A stretch of DNA of 48,398 bases, from assembly GCA_944326155.1 (NCBI GenBank), contig CALVCV010000010.1, positions 1-48,398 on the forward strand, written 5' to 3'. The notes beneath the pieces were generated by a model. The model ran no database searches, was not told the DNA's origin, and worked only from the letters and a program-made list of their open reading frames with translations. The translations under genes were made by a program, and so were the position numbers. Positions 30,900-48,398 of this stretch are shown here, piece by piece; position 1 is the stretch's first letter; every line of letters begins with the position of its first letter. The DNA is from an uncultured Bacilli bacterium. GTDB lineage: Bacteria; Bacillota_I; Bacilli_A; ML615J-28; CAG-313.

Positions 30900-31091
30900 C
30901 TATGATATTTGTTTTGCTTTAATTAATCTAGCAGAAATTTCATCTTCTGGTTTCAACATAATTCCACCAGCTAAATAGCTTTCTAACTTTTCATAACAAA
31001 TATAATTATTAATATTATATGCTTTAACATATCTGCCTCTAAAATCTGTAATTATGCCATTTTCTTTGGATTTTTTAACTAAATTTATCAA
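30900..31091 (-). pseudogene. Out-of-frame C-terminal HTH end of the retron effector
   Basis: 63 codons open from a TTG at 31091, one frame off the effector gene and overlapping its last 17 bases. There is no ribosome site. If one base is removed from the TTT before AGTTAAAAAATCC, the joined product reads IIRYMNISSNKFDKLVKKSKENG and continues to VKAYNINNYICYEKL. That is a plausible winged-helix end, like the DNA-binding tails of PRTase retron effectors. I therefore read this as the frameshifted tail of the gene at 31075-32049 rather than a separate gene. Confidence 0.5.
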
Positions 31092-32049
31092 ATTTATTTG
31101 AAGATATATTCATATACCGAATAATTGTTTTCTTTTTATATCCACACAACAAAAGCGTTACAAAAAATGGATATTTACTATTTATTTTCACCTCTAGTGA
31201 TTTAAAAAATGATTTAATCCTAAATGATAAATTTCTATCATTTGCCACATCAATATATCCTTGCTTACGTTGAAATAATGAATAAAATCTATTTTTGCAC
31301 CAAAGGCATCCTAATGTATTATTAGGAACAAAATAATTAAATACTATTGTATCTTCAATATTTTTAAATCCATATATGTATTTATTGGGGATGTTAAGGA
31401 ACTCACTAAATTCAATAAATTTCTGACATTCAGTTTTTGATAAACATCCTCTTGTTATAAACTTTGCAGGTCTTATGTTTTCAAAATATTTAATGTCCAA
31501 ATTAAATAAGCTATAATTATTTTTTATTGTATTAAATCTTTCAAATGCATAATTCGTAATAAATATGGGATAAAATAAAATATTAATTTTTCTTGTTAAT
31601 GGTTTTTCTATTTTTTTTAAAATATCATTATGTAATTTATTTAAATATTTTTCAAATGTTGATAAACTTCCTGCATAATCATCAACAATAATTAATTCCA
31701 CACCATGTTTTATTTCATTAATAAAAGTTTGATCAACACTATTTATTTGAAAAATATTTATATTACCTTGTAAAAATGCTAAAAATGCATGGCTTTTATG
31801 AGTTATATTATCTGTAATTAAGGAAAGTATTTTTGTTTTTTTATTAGCCATTGATTCTAAATTAGATCTATATAAATCAATCATATTTTTAAAATTATTT
31901 AAATCATAAAAATCAAGATTTGTTAAAATTTTAATAAGTAATTTTTGATAATCTTTATCAGCAAATTGATTAATATATAAATTAATCGCAATATCAAAAG
32001 ATTTTTGTAATCTAACATCACTCGTCCATTTTTCTATAAAATCATACAT
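31075..32049 (-). CDS. Retron effector: phosphoribosyltransferase-like (PRTase-CE) protein
   Basis: 324 residues. GVELIIVDDYAGSLSTF (about 116-132) matches the PRPP-binding loop of phosphoribosyltransferases (hydrophobic-DD-x-x-G-[ST]). The later VPNNTLGCLWCKNRFYSLFQR (about 243-263) corresponds to the NNTLP..W......LF.R element that I associate with PRTase-CE conflict-system effectors. The N-terminal 110 residues are helical. The C-terminus TIIRYMNISSNKFDKF begins a helix-turn-helix that seems to continue in another frame. The gene starts 3 bases after the reverse transcriptase stop, in the same operon. Retron effectors of this type are thought to be held inactive by the RT-msDNA complex and released on phage attack. 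The family call is from motifs only. Confidence 0.68.
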   Translation of the reverse strand: MYDFIEKWTSDVRLQKSFDIAINLYINQFADKDYQKLLIKILTNLDFYDLNNFKNMIDLYRSNLESMANKKTKILSLITDNITHKSHAFLAFLQGNINIFQINSVDQTFINEIKHGVELIIVDDYAGSLSTFEKYLNKLHNDILKKIEKPLTRKINILFYPIFITNYAFERFNTIKNNYSLFNLDIKYFENIRPAKFITRGCLSKTECQKFIEFSEFLNIPNKYIYGFKNIEDTIVFNYFVPNNTLGCLWCKNRFYSLFQRKQGYIDVANDRNLSFRIKSFFKSLEVKINSKYPFFVTLLLCGYKKKTIIRYMNISSNKFDKFS

Positions 32050-32052
32050 ATT

Positions 32053-32697
32053 CTACTCACCAAATGAACCTTCATATAAATTTAATTCATTAAGCTGTTC
32101 TAAAAACTTCTTGCCTTTTTCAGAATCTACCATTTTAATATAAAAAGCTAGACCATATAAGTGATTCACATAGTCTATATGTTCATTAAATTCAATTCTA
32201 TCTAAATGACTCTCTAAACCATATCTTGATATGTATCTTATAGCATTTTCTAATTCACGAATAATTTTCTTATCAACATTCATTTTTGTATTAACTGTAA
32301 TCCCTGTGACTTTCAGAGATTGGCCATTAACAAATTTTCTATATTTTTCTTGATTTGGTGTAAATCCTTCTTCTGTAATAACCTTATCTATAAAATTTTT
32401 TATATATTCACATCTTGATGTTGACAATTTTTCCTTACTCGATATTGTAATATCATCAGCATACCTTGTATAACTTAAATTTAGTTTTTTGCAAAAGGCT
32501 TCTATTCTATTATCTAGTCTTATACAAACTAAATTTGATAACATTGGACTAGTAGGTGCACCCTGCGGTAAACTATAATCTTTATTAACACACAAATATC
32601 CTAAATATTTAGAAACATTAGGGCCATATCCAAAGTATCTAAATTGTCCTACAACTTTGGGCAATTTAATAGACGGAAAAAAAATCTTTAATATCAA
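32053..32697 (-). pseudogene. Retron reverse transcriptase, C-terminal part (frame 2)
   Basis: 214-codon frame carrying RT motifs 4-7. SLPQGAPTSPMLSNLV is the template-grip region; TRYADDITIS, with the YADD catalytic pair, is also present. LKVTGITVN corresponds to the VTG motif typical of retron RTs, and the C-terminal thumb follows. The first residues, KIFFPSIKLPKV, repeat the junction DIKDFFPSI expected in motif 3. The true protein is therefore produced by joining it to the upstream frame at the T8 tract (32676-32683). Removing one T gives a single 334-residue RT, the usual size. Confidence 0.8.
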
Positions 32698-33058
32698 ACT
32701 TCCTTAAAGTTTTAGCTTCCAAATGAGGAATTGCATTATCAACTATTGATTTACCTCTCATATATCCAATACAACTATTTGGCATATTAAAATTTGACAA
32801 TATTACTCTATTAATTGCTTTTTGAATAAATTTTATTTTGTCATCGGGAATCTCAAGTTTACGAATTCCACCATTTTTTTTAGGAATATTATATTCGTGA
32901 TATAAATTCTTTTTTCGATTATCTGGATATAAATACTTCTTTTCATCTTCAGGGCTTATATCTAAAAGTTCCAATAAATGATTAATAGATTTAATTATAG
33001 GTAAATTAAAACTTTGTAATTTTTTTAAATTACAATTATCACTATCTTTAATAATCAT
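32666..33058 (-). pseudogene. Retron reverse transcriptase, N-terminal part (frame 1)
   Basis: 130 codons from the ATG at 33058, with a GGAG site 9 bases upstream. YNIPKKNGGIRKLEIPDDKIKFIQKAIN is RT motif 1. CIGYMRGKSIVDNAIPH is the motif 2 region, and LRKFDIKDFF holds the first catalytic Asp. The frame then runs into a T8 tract and stops after SVY, while the continuation is one frame away. The gene follows the retron RNA directly. Whether the frame is corrected by slippage, is off in this cell, or is a base-call error is discussed in the findings. Confidence 0.8.
32676..32683 (-). repeat. T8 homopolymer at the retron RT frameshift
   Basis: Eight T on the coding strand inside the codons for DFF. 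Seven would keep the RT in frame (GAT TTT TTT CCG, DFFP). Tracts of this length are prone to replication and transcription slippage. Confidence 0.85.
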
Positions 33059-33321: not shown

Positions 33322-34674
33322 TTAAATTATATTATTGACATTGCAAATTGTTTTTTCTAATCCATCTTTATCTATTATATCTGCAAACTTTAATAAAAAC
33401 TCTTTTAATTTTGTCGAATCTAATTTTGTAATCTTATCAATGACTTCATTATTACCTTCAAACAAATCTAAAAATGAAAAATTATACATTGCTGCTGGCT
33501 TATCGGCAAGCAATCTAATATACGGACTCCAATTAATATATCTTGCTCCAGGTTTTGAATTCATTCTAGGTACAGTCATTATATATTTTCCATTTTCATA
33601 ATATATTTCTATTTGTTCAGGTAAATATTTAACTTGAACCTTTTTATATGCAAGAGATGGTGCTAAATAATAATAATGTCTATTGTCAGTGGTTAGTCTT
33701 CCGTAATTATCTAATCTTCTTGAAGAAACAGAGGATGCTTCAAATGGTGTAGGTGGCAATGGATTTAATTCAGTAATATCTTCAAAGTGTAAATCTATTA
33801 TTGGCTGTTTCAATACATAATGTTCTCTTTTCATCAGTTGTTTACTTCTATCTAATAATTCTGAATTATATTTATCAAAATCATCAAATGATGGCAATGG
33901 TACAAGTAAGTTTCTTCTCATATACCTTACACCTTGCTCCACAGTCCTTTTTTTATATCCTCTATTAACATTTAAAAATACTTCTTTGAAATCATAATGC
34001 AATTTAAATCTATTAAATGTATCTCCAACAATTCTTCTTATTCTACCATGTTCTAAATTTCCTATTTTTACTAAAGCACTATCATTATCAAACCATATCG
34101 TATGTGGAACACCATTTAGATATTCAAAAATATGTCTTATTGCTAAAGTTATACTTTCAGCATTTTTATTTTTTAATAATTGTATATAAGAAGCATTTGA
34201 ATGAGTAAAAGCAAGTACTAAATATTTACCATATATTTTTACACCTTTTTCAATAAAAGAACATTCACCTAAATCTACTTGTGCTTCTCCTGCCTTATGA
34301 TCTAACGGTAGAAAACCATTATGTTCATAATAAAACTCTTTCTTTAATTTTGTAAAATATTTAATTGTTGAAGTTTTCGCATATTTAAAATCAGGATAGT
34401 TTTCTACTAAATAATCATATGCACGAGAACCTGTATATCTTTGTTTATGATGATGTATACTATCTTTTTTAATTAGTGATAATAATACTTCTTTATATTG
34501 ATCTAAATAATGTGCTCTTTTATTTTCTTTAATTTAAGCATTGAAATTTACAAACTTTAAATATTTATAACATGTATTTTTAGATATTTTTAATAGTCTA
34601 GTTATTTCAGTAACTGTATAATGTTGTTCATAATACATTTTTCTTATCTTTTCTATATCTTTATGTGTTAACAT
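33322..34674 (-). pseudogene. istA: IS21-family transposase IstA, interrupted and truncated
   Basis: Starting at the ATG at 34674 the frame reads MLTHKDIEKIRKMYYEQHYT, then the HTH TEITRLLKISKNTCYKYLK, and meets TAA at 34534-34536. The same frame then runs to 33322 without another stop but has no start codon until a TTG at 34002. The DDE residues remain: AQVDLGECSF, IWFDNDSALV and RTVEQGVRYMRRN. The C-terminal domain (DKYNSELLDRSKQLMKREHY onward) is recognisably IstA. The total of about 450 codons is shorter than the roughly 500 usual, and no istB follows; the retron promoter begins within 60 bases of its end. It should be inactive. Confidence 0.85.
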
Positions 34675-34703
34675 AATTATTTCCTTTCATATAATTAAAA
34701 TAA

Positions 34704-34729
34704 AAGACCACTATTTGTATAGTGATCTT
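34704..34729 (-). terminator. Terminator of the dnd-side transcript
   Basis: 11-bp stem (minus strand AAGATCACTAT / ATAGTGGTCTT, one U-G pair) with a 4-base loop, followed by TTTTATTTTAATT. It lies beyond the broken zinc-ribbon gene that follows dndE. Confidence 0.85.
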
Positions 34730-34764
34730 AAAATGCTTTTATAATTCAAATTTTATATTAATTA

Positions 34765-35715
34765 TTATTTTCTGCTATATTTTTCTTTATTTTCATTATT
34801 TGATCTGAATATTTCTTTGATTGATTCATTTTTTTCTTCTTCAGTAAACTCATATTCTAATTGCATATCAATTATTGCTTTAAGAGTTTCATAGTAATCT
34901 TTACTAGTCTCTTCATCCAACTCATGTATACTTACACTTAAAATAGAATATAAACTTTTCATATAATCTCTAATTCTTGGATCTATATAATCCTTAATTT
35001 TATCTATTTTCTCATCCATATGTCCTAAAACAATATCAAGTTTTTTTTGTTTTAAATAGAAACAACCCATCTTCTCAAAGATTCTTCTTAAATATGCATA
35101 TGACCAACATAAAATTTATCAACGTATGACAGATCAGCTTTTTTATAATCTTGATATGCATTTATTTTCTCTAATTGTTTTTTATATTTTTCAAAATCAA
35201 ATCCATGAACATCTATATTAGATGGATATTGTCCAACCTTTATGACTGTAAATTCTCCTAATTCTTGCTGAATCATTATATCCATAAAATAAGAATGTGA
35301 ATTTACATTTATACAATTAAACTTACACGATACCAACCAGCTATTATTAATACACATTTGATCCTGATATATGGATTGACAATTTGAAGATACATTTGAT
35401 TTATCAAAAAGTAGTTCTCTACGCAAACTTACTCCTGTAATATATAGGGGATGCAATTGTAATACAGTGACCATTTGTATAATCCATATAATCACCTTTA
35501 CAATCTAATATTTGATAATCAACTTCAAAGGGATATTCTTTTCCACATTTTATGCATTTTGTTATTAACCTTTTATCAGCTAATCCTAAATAATTAAAAA
35601 AATTGTCTAGTATTTCCTTGTTTAATATATAATTATTTTGGTCATCTTTTTCGAAAATTTTAAATTTCTCTTTCGAATATAATGATACATCATTAAATAA
35701 ATTAGTAATACTCAT
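34765..35715 (-). pseudogene. Twice-frameshifted zinc-ribbon protein gene
   Basis: Three ORFs in two frames make one protein. Part 1 (35715 to about 35430) holds MSITNLFNDVSLYSKEKFKIFEK and a zinc-ribbon-like CIKCGKEYPF, and ends PIYYRSKFA. Part 2 (to 35088) continues as SLRRELLFDKSNVSS to ADLSYVDKFYVGHMHI. Part 3 (to 34765) continues as AYLRRIFEKMGCFYLKQKK to IHELDEETSKDYYETLKAIIDMQLEYE. At the second junction GGTCATATGCATATT would become in-frame GAYAYLRRIFEK if one G were restored. I do not know the family. It is the last gene of the dnd transcript, so it may be an extra component that has decayed. Confidence 0.7.
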
Positions 35716-35742: not shown

Positions 35743-36123
35743 CTATATCAAATTATCCAAGTTCATAATATTTTTATAAAAATTATTTGGATTATATCTA
35801 TATTCAGCAAATAACAACTTTGCTCCACGATCTAAATGTGCTTTAATATATTTTGGAAAATAATCATCATCATTAAGCCTTTTATTATTTTTAGATATAA
35901 TTAAGGCTTTAAATAATTCATCATATTCTCCTGTAATTGTTTGTCTATTTAATTCCAAACCATCATTGTCAGTTGAAAAATCATATTCATTTAAACATTC
36001 ATTATTATTAATAGATAAAGCAATTGCAATTTTAGCTAGAATAAAAGGTTGTAAATGTATACTATTTCCTAAATCTGCAAATATTGTCATTGTTTCTTTT
36101 GAAGTTTTTAATTTAAAATTCAT
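35743..36123 (-). CDS. dndE: DNA sulfur modification protein DndE
   Basis: 126 residues starting MNFKLKTSKETMTIFADLGNSIHLQPFILAKIAIALSI, the conserved DndE opening. The middle part and the RGAKLLFAEYRYNP end also fit the family. DndE is a small tetrameric protein required for phosphorothioation, reported to bind nicked DNA. An ATG eight codons upstream would precede the AGAGGAG ribosome site, so the start at 36123 is preferred; it leaves one base between dndD and dndE. It is the last intact gene of the dndBCDE operon. Confidence 0.9.
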   Translation of the reverse strand: MNFKLKTSKETMTIFADLGNSIHLQPFILAKIAIALSINNNECLNEYDFSTDNDGLELNRQTITGEYDELFKALIISKNNKRLNDDDYFPKYIKAHLDRGAKLLFAEYRYNPNNFYKNIMNLDNLI

Positions 36124-36124
36124 T

Positions 36125-38176
36125 TTATTCTCCTCTAAAATATTCATTTTGAATAATTAATGTTTCTCCATGATTATCACTATCTAATAAAAACATTTTA
36201 TTAATACTATCATCAATTTGTGCTTTATATTTACCATAAATTTCTGAGTCAGTTGATAAAATGAATATTTGGTTATTAATACCTTTAAAGAATACCTCAA
36301 TAATTCCTTCTTTATGAACTGTATCAATTCTTGCAAATGGGGTATCAATAAAGAACGGTATATCCCTTTTACTTGTTTGTAATACTGCTAAATATATTGA
36401 CATAATATAAACTTGTTTTTCACCATTAGAAAATGGAGACTCAATTTTAAATGGAATTTTAGCAGTTTTAGTTTTACCAGTCAAAACAGACGCAATTTTC
36501 TTGCCATATGTTTTATCAAACAAGTTAATAAACTCTTTGTTTTGTGGATTACTAATATAATTTTCTAATTTTTCTTTATTAAAACTTTCAATTTTGTATG
36601 GTATCAAGTTAATATCTTTATCAATTATAATTCCGTCCACAAAATTGTTTTTGTTAATAATTTTATTAAAAATTTCTATGAACTGCTTTTCTAATAATCT
36701 ACTTTGTCTTTCTATCAACTTTTCTTCTAATAATTCAAATTCAATTAAAGCACGTTCTGAAATATTAGAAACAGATTCATTTTTTAATAATGATTGAATC
36801 TTTTCTTTTAATTTCATATATTCATTTAATTTAGCCTCAGAAGCAAACAATACTTTTTGATGCTCATTTTGTAAAAGCAACAATTCTTTTTCCATTTTTA
36901 ATCTTTCAATTTCTAATTTATTAGTTTCTACTGTAATTGTTGAGTATCCATCGTAAGAGGTACTATTTAATATAGTTCTAATTTTTTTAGTAATTGCTAA
37001 AGACTTATCTACTTCTTTCAAAATTACTAATAACTCTTTTTTATTAAACTTTAATTTATCATGTAATTGATGATTAATTTTATTAAATTCATAATCAGAA
37101 AAGTCAAAAATATTTTCACCTTTATTATGATTATCATAATTTTCTAAAACATTTATAATGCTATTTAAGTTATTTTCTTTTAAATAATTTAAATATTCAG
37201 TACTGGATATAATTTCATGATAATGTTTTACTTTTTGGTTGTTTTTAAATGAATTAAGTTTTGATTCTAATTCAATCAATTCATTGTTAAGAATTATAAA
37301 AGGTAAATAATTATTTGCTATATCTTTTATTCTCTTAGATAATTCTTCTCTTTTTAATTCTTCATAGTCTAACTCTTTATTTAATTTCATCCATTCATCA
37401 ATAGTAACTCCACCACTATTTTTAAAATCCATAATAATTGATTCTTTTTTTGCAGATAATTCATCAATATATTTATTTAATTCTCTTATTTGTCTTTCTA
37501 AATGTCTTTTATATTTAACTATTTCTTCATAATTATTCTTAATTTCGTAATACTCATCAAATACTTTTTTATTATTAGAATTATTTATATTTCTTTTAAA
37601 ATTATCTTTCATTATTGAAAAAGTATCTAAACTATATAATTTTAAAAATGCATCTCGAAAATTTTGTTCACCATTACTTCCTAAAAAGAAATCAGTTATT
37701 TCTTCACCATCAAAAAAATAAAAATTAAACATTGCTGGCGGTATAATTGATAATAAGTATGAATTAAAATCATTCTTTTCTGATTCATCAATTTCTGCAC
37801 CATTCTTTAATACATTTAATTTTTCTGCAAAAGATTTATTTGTTTTATGCCATTCTCTTTTTATTGTATATACATTATCTTCTTTCCCATCGTTAAATAA
37901 TAATTGAATTTCAATATAAGCCAATGAATTATTATTCATTTTTTCTTCATTGTTTATTAAAGTACTTATTATATCATAATATGGTTTACAATTAGCATCA
38001 AATCCCCATATTCTACATCCGTATAAACACGTTTTAATAGCTCTGAAAAAAGTGGTTTTTCCTGCACCATTTTTCCCACCAATTAAGATTATGTGCTTTT
38101 CATTATCATCAATTTCAAAAGCATTCTCATTTTTATATGGGCCTATATTATATAAAGTAATTTTTCTAATCTTCAT
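36125..38176 (-). CDS. dndD: DNA sulfur modification ATPase DndD
   Basis: 683 residues, SMC/RecN-like. ILIGGKNGAGKTTFFRAIKTCLYG (about 30-53) is Walker A. FYFFDGEEITDFFLG (about 150) is the DndD signature, a long coiled coil spans about 200-480, and ESPFSNGEKQVYIMSIYLA with IPFFIDTPFARIDTVHKEGI (about 560-625) forms the ABC signature and Walker B. DndD supplies ATPase activity for sulfur insertion into the DNA backbone, probably by DNA nicking or remodelling. The gene overlaps dndC by 11 bases, with AAAGGAGGG inside dndC. Confidence 0.95.
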   Translation of the reverse strand: MKIRKITLYNIGPYKNENAFEIDDNEKHIILIGGKNGAGKTTFFRAIKTCLYGCRIWGFDANCKPYYDIISTLINNEEKMNNNSLAYIEIQLLFNDGKEDNVYTIKREWHKTNKSFAEKLNVLKNGAEIDESEKNDFNSYLLSIIPPAMFNFYFFDGEEITDFFLGSNGEQNFRDAFLKLYSLDTFSIMKDNFKRNINNSNNKKVFDEYYEIKNNYEEIVKYKRHLERQIRELNKYIDELSAKKESIIMDFKNSGGVTIDEWMKLNKELDYEELKREELSKRIKDIANNYLPFIILNNELIELESKLNSFKNNQKVKHYHEIISSTEYLNYLKENNLNSIINVLENYDNHNKGENIFDFSDYEFNKINHQLHDKLKFNKKELLVILKEVDKSLAITKKIRTILNSTSYDGYSTITVETNKLEIERLKMEKELLLLQNEHQKVLFASEAKLNEYMKLKEKIQSLLKNESVSNISERALIEFELLEEKLIERQSRLLEKQFIEIFNKIINKNNFVDGIIIDKDINLIPYKIESFNKEKLENYISNPQNKEFINLFDKTYGKKIASVLTGKTKTAKIPFKIESPFSNGEKQVYIMSIYLAVLQTSKRDIPFFIDTPFARIDTVHKEGIIEVFFKGINNQIFILSTDSEIYGKYKAQIDDSINKMFLLDSDNHGETLIIQNEYFRGE

Positions 38177-39545
38177 CTGATAGGCCCTCCTTTATTTTAT
38201 TGTAATGTATCCACTCTTGATTTATTATGGAGTCAAACTCTTTTTGTAATTTAGTATTTCTATTATTATATTTATTATTATTTACAGAAACCATAAGTTT
38301 TGAAAGCAACTCAAATGGGACATCAATTTTATGTGCTATATTCTTTATATTATCAATTATGTCATCTTCATACAATTGTTGCTTATATTTATCCCATGGT
38401 AATTTTTCTTCAAAAATTTCAAAGTATAAGTCAACTAAACTTCTTCTAGTTAAATCTCCTTCTAAGTCCCATAAAGTATCTATTATTTTCAACTCATCAA
38501 ATGTTATTAATTCATATTTTGTTTCTTTTTGTAAAGTTAATAATCTTTTTAATATTTCATATCTTGCCCAAAGTGTAAAAGGTCCAAAACCAAAATCTCC
38601 ATTTTTCTTTTGATAAACCTTTCCATTTCGACGTTTATTATCTCTATAATCTGGATTTTGTCTAATACTTACTAACCAGTTTCTAAAATCTCTTAATGGA
38701 ATTAATTCTTTTGCTCCATTATCAATAAATTTTTGTAATGACTTATCTTCTTTTACTATTGTACAACACCAACATCCAAAACGTGAATTTCCTGTTACTG
38801 GAATCTTAGAATTATCAATTTGTCCAACAACACTTTGTTCTTCCCCCATATCCTCGCCTTGATACAAACTAAATAAATATTTCATATCAACACCCCATTG
38901 ACTTTTACCATTATCTTTTAATAAGTATTCCCATACTCTTTCATTTTTAATTTCAGTCAGAGGATTATAAACAAATGCATTTTTAAAATCACTATGTGGT
39001 ACTAAAATTTTTCCTTCGATCTCACGATTAGTAATTGATCTACTTCGTGAGTTACTTTCTGCTTTTCTAACACCAAGTAACAAAATAACTTCACCATATT
39101 TATCAATTAACTTTTGTGTATAATTATTCATTGGATTAATTTTTAATCTATCTGTACACCAGCGAAACCCAGGTGGTTCTGGAGTTGGGTATCCTAAACC
39201 AATAACTAGTGTCCAATATGTTTTTCTTATTTCTGGATATATTATTTCTGCTTTAATGTTACAATGATTATTTTTTGAAAATTCATTTATTTTGTTAGAT
39301 GAAGAATGCATATATTTCTTAATAATTGGATTTTCAACGCCAGTATCTGAACTAACAATATAAATATCTTTAGTTCTACTTTCCTCTGGTATTCTATTTA
39401 TTGTTTCAATAACAAGTGATACTAATAATGATGAGTCTTTTCCACCACTATATCCAATTATCCAAGGTCTATTGTCATGTTGATATACTAATTGCATTTC
39501 CTCAATTACTTGTTCAAATTCTGGAAATTCATTATTTTGTTTCAT
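38166..39545 (-). CDS. dndC: DNA sulfur modification protein DndC (PAPS-reductase fold)
   Basis: 459 residues. IGYSGGKDSSLLVSL (about 32-46) is the PP-loop for ATP hydrolysis. SSDTGVENPIIKKY and GFRWCTDRLKINP are typical of the ATP-sulfurylase/PAPS-reductase fold. FGCWCCTIVKEDKSL (about 256) supplies the cysteine cluster that should bind an iron-sulfur centre. It activates the target and passes sulfur to DNA. The sulfur donor DndA is not in the window, so a chromosomal cysteine desulfurase such as IscS would have to serve, as known in other dnd loci. It overlaps dndB by 14 bases. Confidence 0.95.
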   Translation of the reverse strand: MKQNNEFPEFEQVIEEMQLVYQHDNRPWIIGYSGGKDSSLLVSLVIETINRIPEESRTKDIYIVSSDTGVENPIIKKYMHSSSNKINEFSKNNHCNIKAEIIYPEIRKTYWTLVIGLGYPTPEPPGFRWCTDRLKINPMNNYTQKLIDKYGEVILLLGVRKAESNSRSRSITNREIEGKILVPHSDFKNAFVYNPLTEIKNERVWEYLLKDNGKSQWGVDMKYLFSLYQGEDMGEEQSVVGQIDNSKIPVTGNSRFGCWCCTIVKEDKSLQKFIDNGAKELIPLRDFRNWLVSIRQNPDYRDNKRRNGKVYQKKNGDFGFGPFTLWARYEILKRLLTLQKETKYELITFDELKIIDTLWDLEGDLTRRSLVDLYFEIFEEKLPWDKYKQQLYEDDIIDNIKNIAHKIDVPFELLSKLMVSVNNNKYNNRNTKLQKEFDSIINQEWIHYNKIKEGLSDED

Positions 39546-40590
39546 TTTCTTTTACCTCTTCTTCACGAGATAGTATAATACCTAGTTTTTGCTTAATTAA
39601 ATTTGTCCCCTTAATAATTGCATCTTCATTATTTTGAATTTTACCATTATCTTTAATAATTCTTTTTTGCCATTCAATGTTTGCTCTTGACCAATCAATT
39701 TTTCGTATACCATTTAATAGTTTTAAATCTAATTTTTCTTCATAAAAAAACTTTCCTAATCTACCAAAAATTTGTAACGTAACTGATAATGTTAATATAT
39801 AATCTTCTCTTAAATCACACTTATATAATTGTTTTTCTTGAAGCATTTTAAATTCTTCTATATTGTTTATTAAGGCATTCCAATAACTTAATAAAAATGC
39901 TTTTGTTTTTTCTATATTTATATTTTCATTTTCCTTAATAATTCTTTTATTTGCACGAAGAAAATTAGCCAATGTAAAAAGTTTCATCGAGTTCTTTCCA
40001 AGGGTATCTTTTTCTTTATCAACATATTTATTTAAAAATTGATTATTAGCAATAATGTACTTAACAATATTTGCAAACTCATCTCTGTCATCATATAAAG
40101 TCGACAATGACATTGTTGATTTAACTGCATGTTTATTAAGGTCAGCAAACATTTGTTGTGATCTTTTTAATCCTTCATCTTTGAAGAATACTATTGATAT
40201 AGTCTCATCACCAAGTTCTGGTTTTTCTTTCAATGCTGCTTCTAAAGCTGCTTTTCTATGTTGGCCATCATTTATTAGAAAAACTGCTTGCATATCGACT
40301 TCTAAAATTCCAATATTTTCATCCTTATTATCAGTTTTAAAAACAAATTCTCCATCAATAGAAGCTGATAATGCTGAAAAAACGTAATTTTCTAAATTAT
40401 TCAAAATATAATTTTTCATTTCTGGAATTCTTGTTTCATTAATACATCTTTGTGCACGATACTCAGGAGAAATATATTCATCCTCATTAATAAAAAGTTT
40501 ATTTAATAATTTTATAGGAATCATTGTAATATAGTATTCTCTTTTTGCTTGAACTCCTCTTACTGCTGGGAAATTATAATTAAAACTCAT
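39532..40590 (-). CDS. dndB: DndB, DGQHR-domain regulator of phosphorothioation
   Basis: 352 residues. NYNFPAVRGVQAKREYYITMIPIKLLNKLF is the DndB opening. VFLINDGQHRKAALEAAL (about 113-130) is the DGQHR motif, and MFADLNKHAVKSTMSLSTLYD follows as in DndB. Loss of DndB homologues raises the level of modification elsewhere, and the Salmonella homologue represses its own operon by binding a palindromic site. The ORF extends to a TTG at 40602 that overlaps GGAGGA, so the ATG at 40590 is the likely start. It is the first gene of dndBCDE, behind a strong promoter overlapped by a 42-bp palindrome. Confidence 0.93.
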   Translation of the reverse strand: MSFNYNFPAVRGVQAKREYYITMIPIKLLNKLFINEDEYISPEYRAQRCINETRIPEMKNYILNNLENYVFSALSASIDGEFVFKTDNKDENIGILEVDMQAVFLINDGQHRKAALEAALKEKPELGDETISIVFFKDEGLKRSQQMFADLNKHAVKSTMSLSTLYDDRDEFANIVKYIIANNQFLNKYVDKEKDTLGKNSMKLFTLANFLRANKRIIKENENINIEKTKAFLLSYWNALINNIEEFKMLQEKQLYKCDLREDYILTLSVTLQIFGRLGKFFYEEKLDLKLLNGIRKIDWSRANIEWQKRIIKDNGKIQNNEDAIIKGTNLIKQKLGIILSREEEVKENETK

Positions 40591-40604
40591 GTTCTCCTCC
40601 AAAT

Positions 40605-40646
40605 AAAAATAGTATACGTAAGTATATACTTAAGTATACTATTTTT
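40605..40646. promoter_or_regulatory. 42-bp palindrome at the dndB promoter (candidate operator)
   Basis: AAAAATAGTATAC (40605-40617) and GTATACTATTTTT (40634-40646) are perfect 13-bp arms. The centre TAAGTATATACTTA (40619-40632) is itself a perfect palindrome, so only one position pair (40618/40633) breaks the symmetry. It covers the -10 box and the expected start of the dnd transcript and reaches to 15 bases from the start codon. It could act as operator, as terminator of the upstream operon, or both. Confidence 0.75.
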
Positions 40647-40661
40647 CTGTTATTTTGTCAA
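40633..40661 (-). promoter_or_regulatory. Promoter of dndBCDE
   Basis: TTGACA (40656-40661) and TATACT (40633-40638) are separated by exactly 17 bases on the minus strand, a near-ideal sigma-A promoter. It sits in the 81-base gap between the 188-residue gene and dndB, so dndBCDE can be expressed separately from the upstream module. Confidence 0.85.
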
Positions 40662-40671
40662 ATAAAAGTGT

Positions 40672-41238
40672 TTATTCTAATTTAGAAAATTGATTTATTA
40701 AATCACTTAAATCTTCGTCTTCTTCTAAATCTTCTATTTCAACATCTTCATCTGGTATTTTATTAATATCATAATTATATCCTTCAACTGATGAAGTAAG
40801 AAATTTCTTTAAATTTTCCATCATTTCTACAGGTTCATCACTTGATAGATCTAATAATTTTGTAACACCAAAATTAGCAAATTTAGTCAAAAACTCAAAA
40901 CGATTGAATTTAATATCACAATTGGTATCAAATGCTAGTTTTAATCTATCTTCATCTTTAAATTCTACTAGTTTAGAAGTTAATATAGCAGTTTGAAACA
41001 TAAAATCTAAATCTGAATTATGAGGTTGTAAAACTGTTCTTGGAACATTCAAAGGTTGCTCATAATCATTTTCTATTGTTAAATCATCAAGTTGCTTATC
41101 ATACATAACACCTATAGAAATACTTAATGCATATAAATTGTAAATAGGTTGTGATCTTTGTTGCCAAAAATATTGAAATTTTTCAAAAGTTCTTCTCCAT
41201 ATAGTACCTTTTAAAACTATATCACTTCTTATTTCCAT
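40672..41238 (-). CDS. 188-aa protein of the Dnd-associated module
   Basis: 188 residues. The N-terminus GTIWRRTFEKFQYFWQQRSQPIYNLYALSISIGVMYDKQ is followed by a helical middle (RFEFLTKFANFGVTKLLDLSSDEP) and a strongly acidic tail (about 165-180, EDVEIEDLEEDEDL). It resembles small proteins encoded beside phosphorothioation-linked ATPases, which may be the PbeD-type member, but I cannot confirm the family. It overlaps the SMC-like ATPase gene by 10 bases, with GGAGGG six bases before its ATG, so its synthesis is coupled to that ATPase. Function unknown. Confidence 0.6.
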   Translation of the reverse strand: MEIRSDIVLKGTIWRRTFEKFQYFWQQRSQPIYNLYALSISIGVMYDKQLDDLTIENDYEQPLNVPRTVLQPHNSDLDFMFQTAILTSKLVEFKDEDRLKLAFDTNCDIKFNRFEFLTKFANFGVTKLLDLSSDEPVEMMENLKKFLTSSVEGYNYDINKIPDEDVEIEDLEEDEDLSDLINQFSKLE

Positions 41239-43184
41239 AAATAGCCCTCCTTAATCTCAGCAATGTTTTGTTCCTCATTACTAGTAATAGTATAAACACG
41301 GCCTATATTATTTTCTTGGAAATCATTATGTAAATTATCTTTAGTAAATATGATGATTTGAGGTGCATAATTTGGTAATACATTAATTACCTTTTGACGT
41401 GGTTCATCTCCTAATTTTGAAAAAGGTGCATCTAAAACTAACGGAAATTCCTTATTTTCTAATAATTTTTCACTCTTTAAAACTTTGAAAATACCACCAA
41501 TGTATGCAAATGAAACTGTCGCAAATTGACCTTCAGATTTCGATTCGTCACCATAGCTATCATAAACTTTCAAAGTGAAATCATTATTAATTTCCACAGT
41601 ACGTTTTGCCTCAAGCATTTCATCTAATAATTGTTGAATTGTATCTTGTAATTTTTCACTATATGATTTTGATTTTTCAATTAATAATTGATCAAAATAA
41701 TCTTTTACTTGTTCCATTATAGAAATTTTTAAATCTATAGTCTTGTTAACTTCTAAAGTAGAACTTAGTCTTTCTATTTCTTTTAAAAGTTTATCAACAC
41801 GTAATCCAGCTATTCGTAATTCTCCAGAACATTTTGACGCATCTTCTTTTAAATCCTCTAAAGCTTGTTCTGCCTCTTTTCTTTCATCTACTAATTTTTC
41901 ATATTTTTTATCTTCTTTGATTTTTTCATCAATTTTAGCAATTTCCTCTTCTTCTTTTTGAGCTAATAAAATAAGTTTTGTTACCTCAGAAATATGTTTT
42001 TCTACTTTTTCTCGAGAATATTCTTTTCCCCAATTTTTTGCTATCAAAGTAAAATTATTATATAAATTAGCATATCCATATGGAGGTAATTGACTATACA
42101 ATTTAGTTAATTCTTCTCTTTCTTTATCAGTTATTTTATTACCACATATACATTTTTCTTCTTTTAGTAATGCATCAATTAATGGGACATCAACACCAGG
42201 CAATACTTTTTGCATACTACTTTGTGATTCAATTACTTGTGAAGCCCTTTTGATTGCTGTTGATAAGAAAAACTTTGGAAATGACTCTATCATTGTATCA
42301 CCAAACAAATGGTATTGTTCTTCAACTAACGATAAATAATTTGCTTTAGTATTCTTATGGTATTCTCTCATTTTATTGTATTCTTTTTGAGAATTAGCAC
42401 CGCCTATTAACTCTGATAATTCAGTAATACGGTCTTGTTTTTCTTTAATTTGTCTACTAATTTCATCTAAATTAGCTTGTAAGGAATCCCTCTTTTCAAG
42501 GGCACTTTCATATTGATTTCCTAACGTTTGCAATTCTGTAGATGATCCACTATCAGTTTTTCTTAAAGTCAAAGTCTTTAAAACAGAATTTGAAGTTGTT
42601 GGTGATCCAATAACACTGCTTGCTTTATCATAAATATTTAAATCCAAAATTAAATATAAAGCTTTTTTTAAATTTTTCGCAGAATCTCTTCCTTTCAATT
42701 TTAAATCAGCAATCATACTTTCTCCATCAAAGAAGAAATAATCTGCCAATCCAGAAGGTAAAATTTGCTCTACAAATTCTTCAGGATTATTAATTTTTAT
42801 CCAATCATTACTATCATTTTTCTTAATAATTGAAAATTTTTCATTCAAAAGTTTAATGTCAAATAGAGACTTTTTATATATCCATTCTCTCCTGATTGAA
42901 TATTCCTCATTATCATGAGTAAAATCAATTTTACCAAATACAGAAAATTGACTATTTACTGCACAAGTTTTTTCCATTTCTAAATTATACAACAATTTAT
43001 CATTAGTTGTTTTATTAAATTTTACCTTACCATAAATAATCCATTGGAACAATTGATGAAATGTAGTTTTACCTGCTCCATTATTTCCATATATTATCGT
43101 TGGTTTACCATCAATTGAAAATTCAACAAATCCTCTATTTTTAAAGTTTCTAAAATTTTCATATTCTATACTCTTAATTTTCAT
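41229..43184 (-). CDS. SMC-like ATPase of the Dnd-associated module (DndD relative)
   Basis: 651 residues. Walker A IIYGNNGAGKTTFHQLFQWIIYG (about 31-53) is followed by DYFFFDGESMIADLKLKGRD (about 147), the same FFDGE element as in DndD. Coiled coils interrupted by KCICGNKITDKER (about 340, a CxC that may act as a zinc hook) and Walker B FPLVLDAPFSKLGDEPRQKV (about 590) complete it. It is a second, diverged DndD-type ATPase, likely part of the restriction arm; PbeC of archaeal Dnd systems is a possible counterpart. A TTG two codons upstream is less likely than the ATG at 43184, which has AAGGTGA in front. Confidence 0.8.
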   Translation of the reverse strand: MKIKSIEYENFRNFKNRGFVEFSIDGKPTIIYGNNGAGKTTFHQLFQWIIYGKVKFNKTTNDKLLYNLEMEKTCAVNSQFSVFGKIDFTHDNEEYSIRREWIYKKSLFDIKLLNEKFSIIKKNDSNDWIKINNPEEFVEQILPSGLADYFFFDGESMIADLKLKGRDSAKNLKKALYLILDLNIYDKASSVIGSPTTSNSVLKTLTLRKTDSGSSTELQTLGNQYESALEKRDSLQANLDEISRQIKEKQDRITELSELIGGANSQKEYNKMREYHKNTKANYLSLVEEQYHLFGDTMIESFPKFFLSTAIKRASQVIESQSSMQKVLPGVDVPLIDALLKEEKCICGNKITDKEREELTKLYSQLPPYGYANLYNNFTLIAKNWGKEYSREKVEKHISEVTKLILLAQKEEEEIAKIDEKIKEDKKYEKLVDERKEAEQALEDLKEDASKCSGELRIAGLRVDKLLKEIERLSSTLEVNKTIDLKISIMEQVKDYFDQLLIEKSKSYSEKLQDTIQQLLDEMLEAKRTVEINNDFTLKVYDSYGDESKSEGQFATVSFAYIGGIFKVLKSEKLLENKEFPLVLDAPFSKLGDEPRQKVINVLPNYAPQIIIFTKDNLHNDFQENNIGRVYTITSNEEQNIAEIKEGYLWK

Positions 43185-43344
43185 TTCCAATCACCTTGTC
43201 CAATTCAGCAACAATGCTTTTTACAATGGTTTTATTTACAGTGTTTTGCTTACTAGAATCAAATTGCTCTTTATCATTTTCTTTTACAATTTCTTCTACT
43301 ACTTTAATCATTTTTTCTACTATTTCATTTTGATTATTATTCAT
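43174..43344 (-). CDS. 56-aa protein between helicase and SMC-like ATPase
   Basis: The ORF reads MNNNQNEIVEKMIKVVEEIV, continues KENDKEQFDSSKQNTVNKTI and ends VIGNEN. It starts inside the last codons of the helicase gene (8-base overlap) and ends 11 bases inside the ATPase gene, so it fills the gap exactly and is flanked by coupled starts on both sides. It is charged and predicted helical, with no membrane segment or cysteine. No family recognised. The tight packing argues strongly for a translated gene, and it would fall below many length cut-offs. Confidence 0.65.
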   Translation of the reverse strand: MNNNQNEIVEKMIKVVEEIVKENDKEQFDSSKQNTVNKTIVKSIVAELDKVIGNEN

Positions 43345-45388
43345 CTAAATGATCCTCCACTTCTACTTCTGTATATAATACTATTTCTTCTAATGACAAA
43401 TCATATCTACTTAATAATTCATCAAGTTCTGCTAATTTTTCTTCTCTATTTATCGCTAATTTAGCATATTCATAAAATCTTCTTAATTCTATTTTTGCAA
43501 AATTAAACATTTCAATTTTAGGTAAAACAATTACATCATAAATATTAGCAAATTTTTTATTTGGATATTTTCTTAATATTCTACCACGTCTTTGGACAAA
43601 TTCACGATAATCATCATTACTCGCAAGAATTAAAGCACTTTTAATAGATGGAATATTTATGCCTTCATCTAAGCAACGAATTGCTACTAGTGATGATATT
43701 TCATTATTATTAAACATTTCAACTAATTCCATTCTACGAGACATATTTTCTTGTGCTGTGAATTGACTAGCTTTAATACCTAATTCATCTAGATTATTTT
43801 TTACAAATTGAATATGTCGAAGAATATCTTTTTCAGTTTTTTCACTAAATACTTTCCCATCTCCACAATAAACAACAAAATGATCTTTATCTGGAACTGT
43901 ATTCAACAGATCCTTAATTCGTGTCATTTTTTCTTCTGCCATAGCTATCAATCGAAGTCTAGCTTTTGTTAATTTAATTAGTCTTTCTTTGTCTAAAAGT
44001 ATACCCTCTTTAGAAAAACACCCTATAATTTTACTAGTTAAATCTGCAAATGATTCTTCTTCAGTTTCACTTGCAGCAACATAGATTGGAAAATAATTGT
44101 AATTTACTAAAAATCCTTTTTCTAGTGCATCTTCTATTGGTAAATTAAAAACTTGTCCTCCAAAATATCTAACTAACGCATTACCTTCTTCATTATTTTT
44201 ACCATTAATTGGAGTAGCACTTAATCCTAACATATATTTAAAAATTTGTTTAGTCTCGTCAGTCCTAGTTGTAAATCTATGGGCTTCATCAACAATCAAC
44301 AATTTTTCTTGACTAGACATTTTTAAAATATTTAAAAATCTGTCTGAATAGAAAGATTGAATTGTTGATATTAATATAGTTTGCCTTTTATCATCATATT
44401 TTTGTCCTATAATACTATGTACAGCATCTGAATACCAAGATGGATTCTCTGAAGAAACTAATATTATGTCTGCCTTTGGGAACACTTTTACAACATCTTC
44501 GTGCCATTGCTTAACCAAATGTTTGTATGGTGCCGTTATAACAATTAAGCTCTTATGATCTTCATATAATCTTTTAGCAGAATATATTGCAGTCCATGTT
44601 TTACCTGTACCTGTGGCCATAACATAGAAACCTTTATATCCATTTTCAACCCATTTATCAATTGCATTTTTTTGATAGTCATATAACGTAATAGGTTCTT
44701 GACTTGTTTTTTTTGTTTTAGCTTCTTCTACAGCTTTTAAAATACTTTTTTTAATAGATTCCGTAAATTTGTATACTTCAACATATGGATTAACATTATT
44801 CCATAACGACTCAAATTCATTTATTTCTCCATTGACAACTTCTTCATCACCAAGATCCCAACTTTTTACAACTCTAATTTTTTCATAATTAGTTGAATAT
44901 CCACTAAATGAAGAATTAGCCGAACCATAGAACACTACAGAATTATTATCTTTATCTGTAATTATTCCTAACTTATCATGATATATTCCTATTTCATTTT
45001 TCATTGAAGCAACTTTAATATCTAAAATACCTTTTAAAACCAGTTGGTATAAAATATTTAATCTGTCTTCATCAAATACTTTAAGTTCTTTTTCAAACAC
45101 ATCAAGAAAAGATTGTTCAAGAATTCTTTCTTTATTTTCATATCCTGCTTGTATTGCTACAATATCATCCTCACTTAGATTCGGACTAACTATTAGTTGT
45201 ATTCTACCTCTATTGCTAATAAAAGTTGGTAAAGACTCTAATAGCAAATTAAAAACAGAAGACGAAAAAAATGCTGTTGTTCTTCTATATAAAGTTGCTC
45301 TTTTTAAAGCAGGATTTATTAAATTTTCAACTAAATTATTTTTGCCATGATTAATATAACTACTATTAATATTTAAATCTTTAAGCAT
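43337..45388 (-). CDS. PLD-domain SF2 helicase of the Dnd-associated module
   Basis: 683 residues. The N-terminal third is a phospholipase-D-like nuclease fold: IYHDKLGII (His137, Lys139) and FYGSANSSFSGYS (about 153-165) form an HxK...GSxN half-site. A superfamily 2 helicase follows: MATGTGKTW (about 257-265), DEAH (367-370), LGLSATP (about 388) and the motif VI QRRGRILRKYP. Proteins of this layout cut or unwind DNA in several restriction-like systems. It lies 12 bases after the sigma-like gene with AAAGGAGGACAAA before its ATG. It is the probable nuclease/translocase of the restriction arm. Confidence 0.82.
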   Translation of the reverse strand: MLKDLNINSSYINHGKNNLVENLINPALKRATLYRRTTAFFSSSVFNLLLESLPTFISNRGRIQLIVSPNLSEDDIVAIQAGYENKERILEQSFLDVFEKELKVFDEDRLNILYQLVLKGILDIKVASMKNEIGIYHDKLGIITDKDNNSVVFYGSANSSFSGYSTNYEKIRVVKSWDLGDEEVVNGEINEFESLWNNVNPYVEVYKFTESIKKSILKAVEEAKTKKTSQEPITLYDYQKNAIDKWVENGYKGFYVMATGTGKTWTAIYSAKRLYEDHKSLIVITAPYKHLVKQWHEDVVKVFPKADIILVSSENPSWYSDAVHSIIGQKYDDKRQTILISTIQSFYSDRFLNILKMSSQEKLLIVDEAHRFTTRTDETKQIFKYMLGLSATPINGKNNEEGNALVRYFGGQVFNLPIEDALEKGFLVNYNYFPIYVAASETEEESFADLTSKIIGCFSKEGILLDKERLIKLTKARLRLIAMAEEKMTRIKDLLNTVPDKDHFVVYCGDGKVFSEKTEKDILRHIQFVKNNLDELGIKASQFTAQENMSRRMELVEMFNNNEISSLVAIRCLDEGINIPSIKSALILASNDDYREFVQRRGRILRKYPNKKFANIYDVIVLPKIEMFNFAKIELRRFYEYAKLAINREEKLAELDELLSRYDLSLEEIVLYTEVEVEDHLDE

Positions 45389-45400
45389 TTTGTCCTCCTT

Positions 45401-48055
45401 TTAAAAGTCATCATCTAATAGTTCATCTAAATTAAGCATTTCATCATAATCATCCGTGACTATTTTATGTGATTCTATACTTGCAATATCATCATCATTT
45501 AATTTTTTATTCTTTTTAATAATTACAGGTATTGCATCTTTCATAATTTTACTAGTCGTAATAACATCATATTTATTTGAACTCTTTAATATAGTACTAT
45601 ATAATACCCACTCATTCCATACTATGCCTATGTCAGGTAATTCCCAATAACTAGTAAATAAATATAATGGTTTATAATCATCATTACCTATAAATTTATC
45701 TAATATTTTTTCAAATTTTTCTACATTTAATATGCCATAATTGACTTTAGCAATACTAATTATAACTGTTTTACTTTTGAAAATTATTTTATCAATATAT
45801 TTACTTATATAAATAATATAACTATCTAAATAATATCCAACTTCATTGGCCATTTCTTTTAATTCTTCTAAAGTTACTTCTTCTTTTTCCAAAACTTTAT
45901 TAATCAATAATTCTTCATATGTGATTATATTTACATTTTTATTTGCAATAAATGGACGTTGAAAATTAAACTTATCCTTATACATTTTTTCTATTAAAGC
46001 ATAAAATTGTAAATAATGATTTAAACCAATACGATTAAATAATCCACTTATTTTTCTTTTTATTGTGTCAAACAAAAATTTTGTATGGTGCTGTAATTCA
46101 TCATTTAAGTTTTCTTTTAATAAATCAAATAAATATTTTTTTTCATCATCGGTTATTTTTAATGAATTTATATTAACATAATATCCATTCATATTTAAAA
46201 TGCCTGTTCTTTCTATTACAGATTGAACAACACCTGCTGTTATTCCAGGAAAATATTCTTTCAATTCATCAAAAGTTACTATATGTTCTGAATTAGTGAT
46301 ATATAATTCTATTTCATTATAAATTGAAGATGTTGATGTTTCTAGAATATAGTCACGTGTTATTATATACTTGTCACTAAATGTTCTCTTTAACACTCCT
46401 TGCAAAGAATATCTATTCATAATTCCTATTTCATTAAATTCATCTTCAAAGTTATCATATATTCCTGTAATAGGTATCGCATCTGATTTATAATTAGAAA
46501 CAAAAATTACAATTTTATCTATTAATTGTTTAGGTATTTCTATTAATATTTCATTATAAATTCTTTCCCCACGACCAGAAGGCATGCACGTATTTTGAAT
46601 TATTGCCCTTACAGCACGAAGGCTTTCTGATAAATCATAATTATACTCTTCTTTAGCATATCTTTTTAAATTTTCAATACTTTCATCATCATTTAAATAT
46701 ATGCCATCAGGAAAATATTTTTTCATTATTAATACAACTACTGTACTATTCTTTAATTTATTACGAAATGAATATTTATTATATTTATAATATTTTTGAT
46801 TAATCCAAGACACAAGAAAATTAGTTTCAATTTTTGTATATTGATCTTTAAAATAATCTTCTAACATATTATTTAATTCACATGTTTCAATCATTTCTGG
46901 CAAAGAATTAATATAGTCTATCAATAAACTACGATTTTTTGACTTATAAAAATAAATTTCATCATTTAAACCATAATCTAATAATTTATCATATACTTTT
47001 TTGATAAAAGAAATGCTTATTTCATATTTTTTTAAATCATCTTCTATAAAAAAATTTGTATATCCACAATGCAATAATATCGATCTGCAAAATCTATTAA
47101 AAATTTTACTTTTAGTAAGTCTTTCTAAAGCACGCATTTCGATTTGTCTTACTCTTTCTCTTGTTAAATCGAATTGTTGACCCAATTGTTCTAAAGTCTT
47201 ATTTTCACGATATCTTAAATTTATGACTGCCTCTTCTTTTGGAGTTAGGCTCTTCATGAATAAATCATAATAATACGCAGGAGTGTTCAAATCTATACTT
47301 CTTACTTTTTCATAAATTTTTACAAGAGCTGAGTAATTAATTTTAAATATATCAATGTCATTTATATCATTAATAATTTTAATTCTAGGAATAATTTGTA
47401 TATTATCTTCATCATCTAATAAGTAATCAATAGTTTTCGTTTTTAATTCATTACTAAAAAAGTGTAATCCATTTAATATTTGTCTGTATATTTGTATTTT
47501 TTCATTGTATACAATTATTTCATTAAAATATTGTTGAATAAAATCATAAAATAATTCCAAATTTATTTCACTACCATATATTTTAACACTAGAATCATTA
47601 TAGTTATTTAGAATAAAGTTACTGTTAAAATCAATTTTTAGATCTGTCATAAAAAAACTATTTTCATCTAAAAAATTATTTAATATTACTACTTGAGTTT
47701 TATTTCCTTTCATCTCAAAAACATTTATCAATTGTTTTAAATCATCAATCAACAATTCTATATTAATATAGTTACTCTTAATCTCAACAAAGTTATTTTG
47801 GTAATTTTTTATTACATCACCATGAGAAAAATAGTTAATTGAAAAATATTCATTATTTGAAAATTTAATTCCAAACAAAAAATTCATAGCTAATTTAATA
47901 TCTTCATTATCACAATCAAGTAATTTTTTATTTTCTAAAATTTCTTCTATTTCTTCAGTTGTATATAATTCTATTAGTTCATTATAAATACTCTCAAAAG
48001 TATTATTTAAATTATAATAATTTTTGAAAGTTTGAGTAATCTTTTCAAAGTTCAT
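45401..48055 (-). CDS. 884-aa protein with sigma-70 region 4 domain, Dnd-associated
   Basis: 884 residues. Residues about 268-315 (SLTPKEEAVINLRYRENKTL to RERVRQIEMRALERL) are a clear sigma-70 region 4 helix-turn-helix. No region 2 is visible, so it is not a working sigma factor. The rest is strand- and helix-rich, with further winged-helix-like stretches (for example VTFDELKEYFPGITAGVVQSV near 590). The acidic C-terminus reads EMLNLDELLDDDF. It heads the module upstream of dnd. AAAGGAGC lies about 35 bases before the ATG with an in-frame stop in between, so translation starts without a normal ribosome site. It may recognise DNA for the system; function unknown. Confidence 0.72.
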   Translation of the reverse strand: MNFEKITQTFKNYYNLNNTFESIYNELIELYTTEEIEEILENKKLLDCDNEDIKLAMNFLFGIKFSNNEYFSINYFSHGDVIKNYQNNFVEIKSNYINIELLIDDLKQLINVFEMKGNKTQVVILNNFLDENSFFMTDLKIDFNSNFILNNYNDSSVKIYGSEINLELFYDFIQQYFNEIIVYNEKIQIYRQILNGLHFFSNELKTKTIDYLLDDEDNIQIIPRIKIINDINDIDIFKINYSALVKIYEKVRSIDLNTPAYYYDLFMKSLTPKEEAVINLRYRENKTLEQLGQQFDLTRERVRQIEMRALERLTKSKIFNRFCRSILLHCGYTNFFIEDDLKKYEISISFIKKVYDKLLDYGLNDEIYFYKSKNRSLLIDYINSLPEMIETCELNNMLEDYFKDQYTKIETNFLVSWINQKYYKYNKYSFRNKLKNSTVVVLIMKKYFPDGIYLNDDESIENLKRYAKEEYNYDLSESLRAVRAIIQNTCMPSGRGERIYNEILIEIPKQLIDKIVIFVSNYKSDAIPITGIYDNFEDEFNEIGIMNRYSLQGVLKRTFSDKYIITRDYILETSTSSIYNEIELYITNSEHIVTFDELKEYFPGITAGVVQSVIERTGILNMNGYYVNINSLKITDDEKKYLFDLLKENLNDELQHHTKFLFDTIKRKISGLFNRIGLNHYLQFYALIEKMYKDKFNFQRPFIANKNVNIITYEELLINKVLEKEEVTLEELKEMANEVGYYLDSYIIYISKYIDKIIFKSKTVIISIAKVNYGILNVEKFEKILDKFIGNDDYKPLYLFTSYWELPDIGIVWNEWVLYSTILKSSNKYDVITTSKIMKDAIPVIIKKNKKLNDDDIASIESHKIVTDDYDEMLNLDELLDDDF

Positions 48056-48235: not shown

Positions 48236-48321
48236 TGGTTCGAATCCCATCATCTACCGTTTTACGTTTTCAACTCTGCACAGATTCGAATCCCGTAACT
48301 CCCACCCCATTGGTTCGAATC
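48236..48321 (+). repeat. Three tRNA T-loop-like repeats (candidate att scars)
   Basis: TTCGAATC occurs three times within 86 bases: GGTTCGAATCCCATCATC (48236), AGATTCGAATCCCGTAACTC followed by CCACC (48281), and TGGTTCGAATC (48311). Each looks like the T-loop and, for the first two, the 3' acceptor side of a tRNA. The rest of the tRNA is missing, and the T-stems do not pair well. Integrases that use tRNA 3' ends leave such fragments. The remaining part of the 343-base gap is AT-rich and holds no gene. Confidence 0.6.
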
Positions 48322-48328
48322 TTATAAA

Positions 48329-48398
48329 TGTCAAGTTAAATATCCTCAATTTTGTTCATTTAACTATCCTCAGTTTGTAAAGGTTTAATTTTATCTTT
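48329..48398. mobile_element. Possible IS21-type element end (partial)
   Basis: Starting TGTCAAG at 48329, two repeats of TTAAnTATCCTCAnTTT(T)GT lie 24 bases apart (48336-48355 and 48360-48378). A 5'-TG start and multiple spaced terminal repeats are features of IS21-family ends. The element would continue past the window; no coding part is visible. Confidence 0.4.

Follow-up and report, generated by a model that had tools for sequence, protein, structure and literature searches.

A locus of nine genes, almost certainly a bacterial Dnd-Pbe defence system, was found in the analyzed stretch of DNA from an uncultured Bacilli bacterium (48,398 nucleotides, hereafter the window). Its core, a dnd gene set together with pbeABCD, is already known: PbeABCD had been described from hundreds of bacterial genomes (Xiong et al. 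2019, PMC6459918), so that its occurrence in a bacterium and its pairing with dnd both have precedents. The new element is a conserved extra lead gene, here named Sig, which encodes a large protein with the promoter-reading domain of sigma factors and accompanies these restriction genes in a number of unrelated bacteria. No description of this Sig-Pbe association was found in the literature searched, which did not cover an earlier ABC-ATPase classification paper (reference 24 of PMC10853773).

Organization of the locus

The nine ORFs are intact, lie on the minus strand from 48055 down to 35743 and are tightly packed, in the order Sig, pbeA, pbeB, pbeC, pbeD, dndB, dndC, dndD, dndE. Neighbouring genes are spaced by -23 to +13 bp, save for pbeD and dndB, which are 69 bp apart. 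The host genome assembly comprises 37 contigs and is 96% complete.

45401..48055, minus strand: Sig, 884 aa, first gene of the operon, with sigma-70 region 4 (aa 267-313) ahead of tandem winged helices
43337..45388, minus strand: PbeA, 683 aa, fusion of a PLD (HKD) nuclease with an SF2 helicase
43174..43344, minus strand: PbeB, 56 aa, between pbeA and pbeC and overlapping both
41229..43190, minus strand: PbeC, 653 aa, CxC-type ABC ATPase with FFDGE element and CICG hook
40672..41238, minus strand: PbeD, 188 aa, DndE-type protein with acidic tail
39532..40602, minus strand: DndB (DGQHR), 356 aa, TIGR03233 E=4.8e-123, PADLOC DndB E=6e-127
38166..39545, minus strand: DndC, 459 aa, TIGR03183 E=7.6e-110, PADLOC DndC E=2e-125
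36125..38176, minus strand: DndD, 683 aa, TIGR03185 E=1e-85, PADLOC DndD E=4e-92
35743..36147, minus strand: DndE, 134 aa, PF08870 E=6e-22, PADLOC DndE E=3e-14

An earlier, sequence-only reading of the window had described full-length dndBCDE preceded by five packed genes of the same direction, among them an ATPase with an FFDGE element and a 188-aa protein with an acidic tail; all of these were recovered in the same places. The same gene order beside dndBCDE, which it proposed to look for in other Bacilli, was found in Clostridia. A scan of genome contigs with PbeA as a single protein found nothing, and a scan with a PbeA alignment then led to two Clostridia MAGs, L087 (Acetatifactor, PbeA 55% identical) and L088 (PbeA 53% identical), both with the order Sig-pbeABCD-dndBCDE as in the window.

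Other elements were observed on both sides of the locus. On the minus strand at 31075-33058, a retron-type reverse transcriptase, split into two overlapping frames (130 and 214 aa) and possibly frameshifted, forms a retron-like defence gene pair with the PRTase-CE gene behind it (PF24390, E=1e-19). On the plus strand at 48237-48340, three successive tRNA 3'-end-like fragments (GGTTCGAATCCC...) occur with no complete tRNA, and the first has no other occurrence in the genome at up to one mismatch; they may be scars of attachment sites, stacked at a hotspot of integration.

Modification genes and sulfur donor

Matches to PADLOC, Pfam and TIGR models confirmed that DndB, DndC, DndD and DndE are all full length, the match of DndE to TIGR03184 (E=3e-13) lying under the equivalog cut-off. 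The modification genes dndBCDE are shared with the Dnd-DndFGH (Dpt) system, but DptF (DndF) gave no tblastn match in the 37 contigs of the genome (96% complete), in agreement with the absence of DndFGH noted previously. On Priestia megaterium plasmid pBMG4, dndBCDE, a desulfurase, pbeABCD and dptFGH are found together.

The absence of DndA at the locus, also noted previously, held as well. No dndA adjoins dndE in the window, while L087 and L088 carry dndA at that spot, after dndE. In the window this flank (33322-35715, minus strand) holds an IS21 transposase C-terminal remnant and, directly downstream of dndE, ORFs of 98, 135 and 101 aa, each in another frame, which look like one decayed gene. 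Two strong cysteine desulfurases were detected elsewhere in the genome, both unlinked to the locus, one being SufS and the other NifS/IscS/DndA-like. The latter (C14:10793-11896), with nearly equal matches to DndA (3e-78) and NifS (7e-81), could substitute for DndA; an IscS-DndBCDE system is known (PMC11662687).

The PbeABCD restriction module

Four of the five genes upstream of dndB are pbeA, pbeB, pbeC and pbeD in their published order, so that the "bacterial Pbe-type module" suggested by the sequence-only reading proved correct. Its placing of PbeABCD in archaeal loci is outdated, since both PMC6459918 and PMC10853773 give bacterial sets, the former including 235 bacterial pbeAC sets near dndCD. 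PbeA matched PADLOC PbeA (PDLC02707, E=6.6e-195) and TIGR04095 dnd_restrict_1 (E=3e-115), the NCBIfam "DNA phosphorothioation system restriction enzyme", and PLDc_2, ResIII and Helicase_C domains were found in it by HMM search. The 56-aa protein, mistaken earlier for an added small subunit, is PbeB itself: its C-terminal segment is common to the small ORFs of L087 and L088, and in the archaeal prototype, Haloterrigena jeotgali, PbeB (66 aa) and PbeD (152 aa) are encoded at matching gene positions (PMC6459918). PbeC matched PADLOC PbeC (PDLC02741, E=4e-75), and the CxC motif was found in 51 of 65 PbeC sequences vs. 2 of 19 DndD sequences. The PbeD profile matched the DndE profile (E=3.4e-6, probability 88%, 108 columns), which places PbeD as a cognate of DndE (double RHH), a kinship also argued by Rakesh et al. 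(PMC10853773). PbeD is 45% and 40% identical to its counterparts in L087 and L088, respectively; Foldseek with its model returned several DndE (4lrv) chains among the best matches, with the highest probability (0.30) among these, which agrees with that kinship although the E-values were not significant.

With the DndCDEA-PbeABCD system (PMC6459918) the window shares a PLD-SF2 PbeA, a small PbeB, a CxC ABC ATPase PbeC, a DndE-like PbeD, the gene order and the dnd neighbours, but it differs in having dndB, no dndA at the locus, and a sigma4/winged-helix lead protein. The CxC ABC-ATPase-DndE systems of Rakesh et al. (2024, PMC10853773), which occur in tandem with DndD-DndE and in 936 bacterial taxa as tandem DndD and CxC systems, have four components matching those of the window; the text consulted describes no sigma4 partner for Pbe, and a sigma-HTH only inside some DndH proteins. 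The locus had been proposed as possibly a variant of its own, and this is justified because Sig falls outside the described system yet recurs beside Pbe.

Domain content of Sig

Sigma-70 region 4 was identified in Sig by HMM search (PF04545, E=4.8e-15, residues 267-313). A sigma-like HTH in an antiphage system, which had been remarked on as unusual, is thus present, although it has precedents in MzaA, a DndH variant and BrxL. The residues T-R-E-R-x-R-Q of the recognition helix are invariant in an alignment of six Sig sequences, and we take them to correspond to R584, E585, R588 and Q589 of E. coli sigma70, which touch the -35 element. Sigma region 2 (PF04542, Sigma70_r2) gave no match at E<=1 in an HMM scan of the window Sig and ten relatives, and Sig was rejected as a true sigma factor, since region 4 is present and region 2, responsible for core binding and -10 recognition, is absent. 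An RNA polymerase alpha-CTD match (E<=3e-4) was obtained in seven of ten Sig relatives, with one more weaker, while the domain was undetected in the window Sig by HMM scan.

The AF2 model of Sig is of low overall confidence (pLDDT 56, pTM 0.32) and no model could be obtained for the first 250 residues; repeated H-H-H-E-E units are apparent, with pLDDT of 80-90 over much of residues 580-770, and only the sigma4 and winged-helix parts were used. Foldseek matched the model to SigmaA region 4/beta-flap chimeras (probability 1.00) and to tandem winged-helix proteins. The homologues in L087 and L088 were recovered with E=2e-63 and 1e-64, yet are only about 24% identical to the window Sig in the alignment.

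Among PADLOC models, none matched Sig beyond its sigma4 domain. MzaA of the MZA antiphage system (NF041931 / PDLC02203) likewise has sigma-70 region 4 in a large defence-operon protein, but at the C-terminus, whereas in Sig it is mid-protein, before the winged-helix array; identity with MzaA was rejected, as the match (46.8 bits vs. a cut-off of 800) covers sigma4 only. A single-sequence scan of viral contigs with Sig found nothing, and tblastn against plasmids and phages gave matches only around sigma region 4, mostly ordinary sigma factors, which are therefore not whole-protein homologues. A sigma/helicase pair of E. faecium was rejected as a relative, its neighbourhood being different and type I R-M-like.

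Association of Sig with Pbe cassettes

In nine of 76 pbeA-pbeC cassettes, pbeA is immediately preceded, on its own strand and at a spacing of -55 to +13 bp, by the gene for a sigma4 protein of 739-1308 aa; in three more such a protein lies behind the Pbe module, and a further Sig-Pbe case, L098, was missed by the automatic rule. A rough estimate for chance neighbours, which assumes some 15 Sig genes among 395 genomes with roughly 1500 genes each, is ~1e-5 per locus, far below 9/76. The Sig-upstream cases occupy three positions in the PbeA tree; its supported branches call for at least two changes, which puts Sig in at least two PbeA clades. When sigma4 was removed, the C-termini of the window family still matched those of L108 (3e-9, 426 columns), L112 (1e-8) and L098 (5e-9), the significant matches spanning 347-426 columns; the match to the Lactiplantibacillus plantarum (L. 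plantarum) proteins was weaker (7e-4). The proteins of L110, L114, L119 and L121 have the domain types alone in common and may belong to a different family.

Sig was also found beside pbe without dnd (L056, L081, L082, L108, L112), and in L190 (6433-12450, minus strand) Sig leads pbeB, pbeC and pbeD with pbeA missing, next to the gene for a divergent UvrD/GajB-like helicase; Sig therefore tracks the Pbe module. The L. plantarum plasmids (L056, L081, L082) carry a Sig of 1080-1141 aa ahead of PbeA, and it is precisely there that PbeA (455-458 aa) is without its PLD nuclease half; in L081 three near-identical short ORFs upstream match the Sig N-terminus.

Away from Pbe, the Sig C-terminal profile matched 15 of 395 genomes of the class, one match being the window and another L190. 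PDC-M33A/B/C genes were near Sig in six of the stretches fetched from Sig searches, and in five of them (L186, L189, L191, L194, L195) a Sig homologue leads this PADLOC candidate defence cassette, coupled to its first gene. Sig is a coupled lead gene in both settings, but PDC-M33 has M33A/B/C genes, often with an adenine methyltransferase, and no Pbe or Dnd. The remaining Sig neighbourhoods had no clear partner, and a reference search found no DndC-type gene in any of these other neighbourhoods. As the family also leads PDC-M33, Sig belongs to restriction modules and not to dnd.

A second, distinct sigma association is formed by sigma factor-like proteins of 350-535 aa, by eye with regions 2 and 4, right behind pbeD in four loci that combine Pbe with Ssp-like genes, one of them on a Methanobrevibacter MAG contig:

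L089:14890-15981, sigma factor-like gene behind pbeD
L094:14903-16063, sigma factor-like gene behind pbeD
L096:14833-15885, sigma factor-like gene behind pbeD
L105:14858-16465, sigma factor-like gene behind pbeD

Proposed role of Sig

We propose, at about even confidence, a phosphorothioate modification-restriction system in which Sig is a fifth, co-translated Pbe component. DndBCDE, with the host NifS/IscS-like desulfurase in place of DndA, would mark host DNA, and PbeABCD led by Sig would restrict unmarked DNA. PbeC and PbeD, an ABC ATPase and a DndE-type DNA binder, may scan DNA, with PbeA (helicase and HKD nuclease) as the putative effector. The sigma4 domain of Sig would most likely bind promoter-like DNA, or RNA polymerase at promoters, and Sig, with its further winged helices, would position or gate the Pbe complex. 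We thus infer that Sig is most likely a DNA- or promoter-reading subunit of that complex. It is not generally required, because a large sigma4 protein is missing from 64 of 76 Pbe cassettes and the archaeal PbeABCD confers protection in its absence (PMC6459918).

The main rival is a pure regulator, a role that would suit a first gene encoding DNA-binding domains equally well: Sig would be only a transcriptional regulator whose sigma4 binds a -35 element (perhaps that of its own promoter or the TTGACA of dndB) or RNA polymerase, balancing modification against restriction. This reading is plausible, if on the doubtful side. Besides the lead position, it is favoured by the conserved -35 contact residues, the alpha-CTD of Sig relatives, the consensus TTGACA in the dndB promoters of the window, L087 and L088, and the presence of DndB in 5/5 Sig-bearing dnd-Pbe loci vs. 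3/16 without Sig, where DndB was counted by a strong match, the figures being uncorrected for kinship and some contigs being cut. On the other hand, 884 aa and many winged helices are large for such a protein, Sig remains translationally coupled to pbeA, or near pbeB where pbeA is lost, and dnd control is already explained by a dedicated palindrome beside DndB:

40633..40661, minus strand: dndB promoter in the pbeD-dndB gap, TTGACA-17-TATACT, exact match and the only one in the window
40609..40642, no strand: palindrome, candidate operator, 34 bp, 17 pairs with a single mismatch, overlapping the promoter's -10

The dndB promoters of L087 and L088 have hexamers and spacing identical to those of the window, and palindromes, diverged in sequence, are found upstream of dndB there too; in each of the three loci, 0/40 shuffles were as good. 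In Salmonella, DndB binds TACGN10CGTA, a precedent for its autoregulation (PMC4507180). By analogy, DndB probably regulates its own operon at this palindrome; it is a presumed binder because the match to TACGN10CGTA is imperfect in the window (TAAGN10CGTA only) and absent in L087 and L088. With its own repressible, probably DndB-controlled promoter, dndBCDE would be regulated apart from the Sig-pbe genes.

It is also conceivable, though quite unlikely, that the five-gene Pbe module is independent of phosphorothioation (acting, for example, by suicide or with another modification) and that the adjacency of dnd is due to chance or loose association. DndC was found in only 21/76 Pbe cassettes (in fetched stretches, some ending at contig ends), 320/553 pbeAC sets are without dnd (PMC6459918), and decoupling is argued by Rakesh et al. 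(PMC10853773). Against this, the window, L087 and L088 all keep the order with dndBCDE, in L077-L079 dndCD(E) comes after pbeABCD, and protection was phosphorothioate-dependent in the archaeal test (PMC6459918). Moreover, dnd-less cassettes are often paired with another phosphorothioation system: Ssp-like genes are present, by gene size, in 20/76 cassettes and were confirmed by PADLOC for one (L062; SspB 5e-44, SspC 8e-73, SspA 4e-34). In about a quarter of the cassettes, SspBCD/SspA-sized genes lie upstream instead of dnd (L062, L064-L070, L089, L091-L097, L105 and others). The sequence-only reading had made the functional link depend on the five proteins not being widespread away from dnd; both Pbe modules and the Sig family do occur away from dnd, and the link to phosphorothioate is probable, not proved.

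That Sig is an unrelated neighbour carried in a defence island is very improbable: Sig-family proteins lie away from pbeA in most genomes of the class carrying them, but close coupling recurs nine times, spread over at least two PbeA clades, and three genomes so divergent that PbeA is 53-55% identical keep one gene order.

As a subunit of the Pbe complex, Sig would offer a handle on PbeABCD targeting, as a promoter-reading fifth gene predicts which DNA the complex reads, and it would connect two families of defence systems by a single DNA-binding part that can be exchanged between them. More speculatively, and rather unlikely, Sig proteins might form a family of "RNA polymerase mimics" specific to defence (sigma4, alpha-CTD and winged-helix array, no region 2), guiding restriction modules of several kinds (Pbe, PDC-M33) to promoters or the transcription machinery, in which case DNA would be examined or attacked at promoters.
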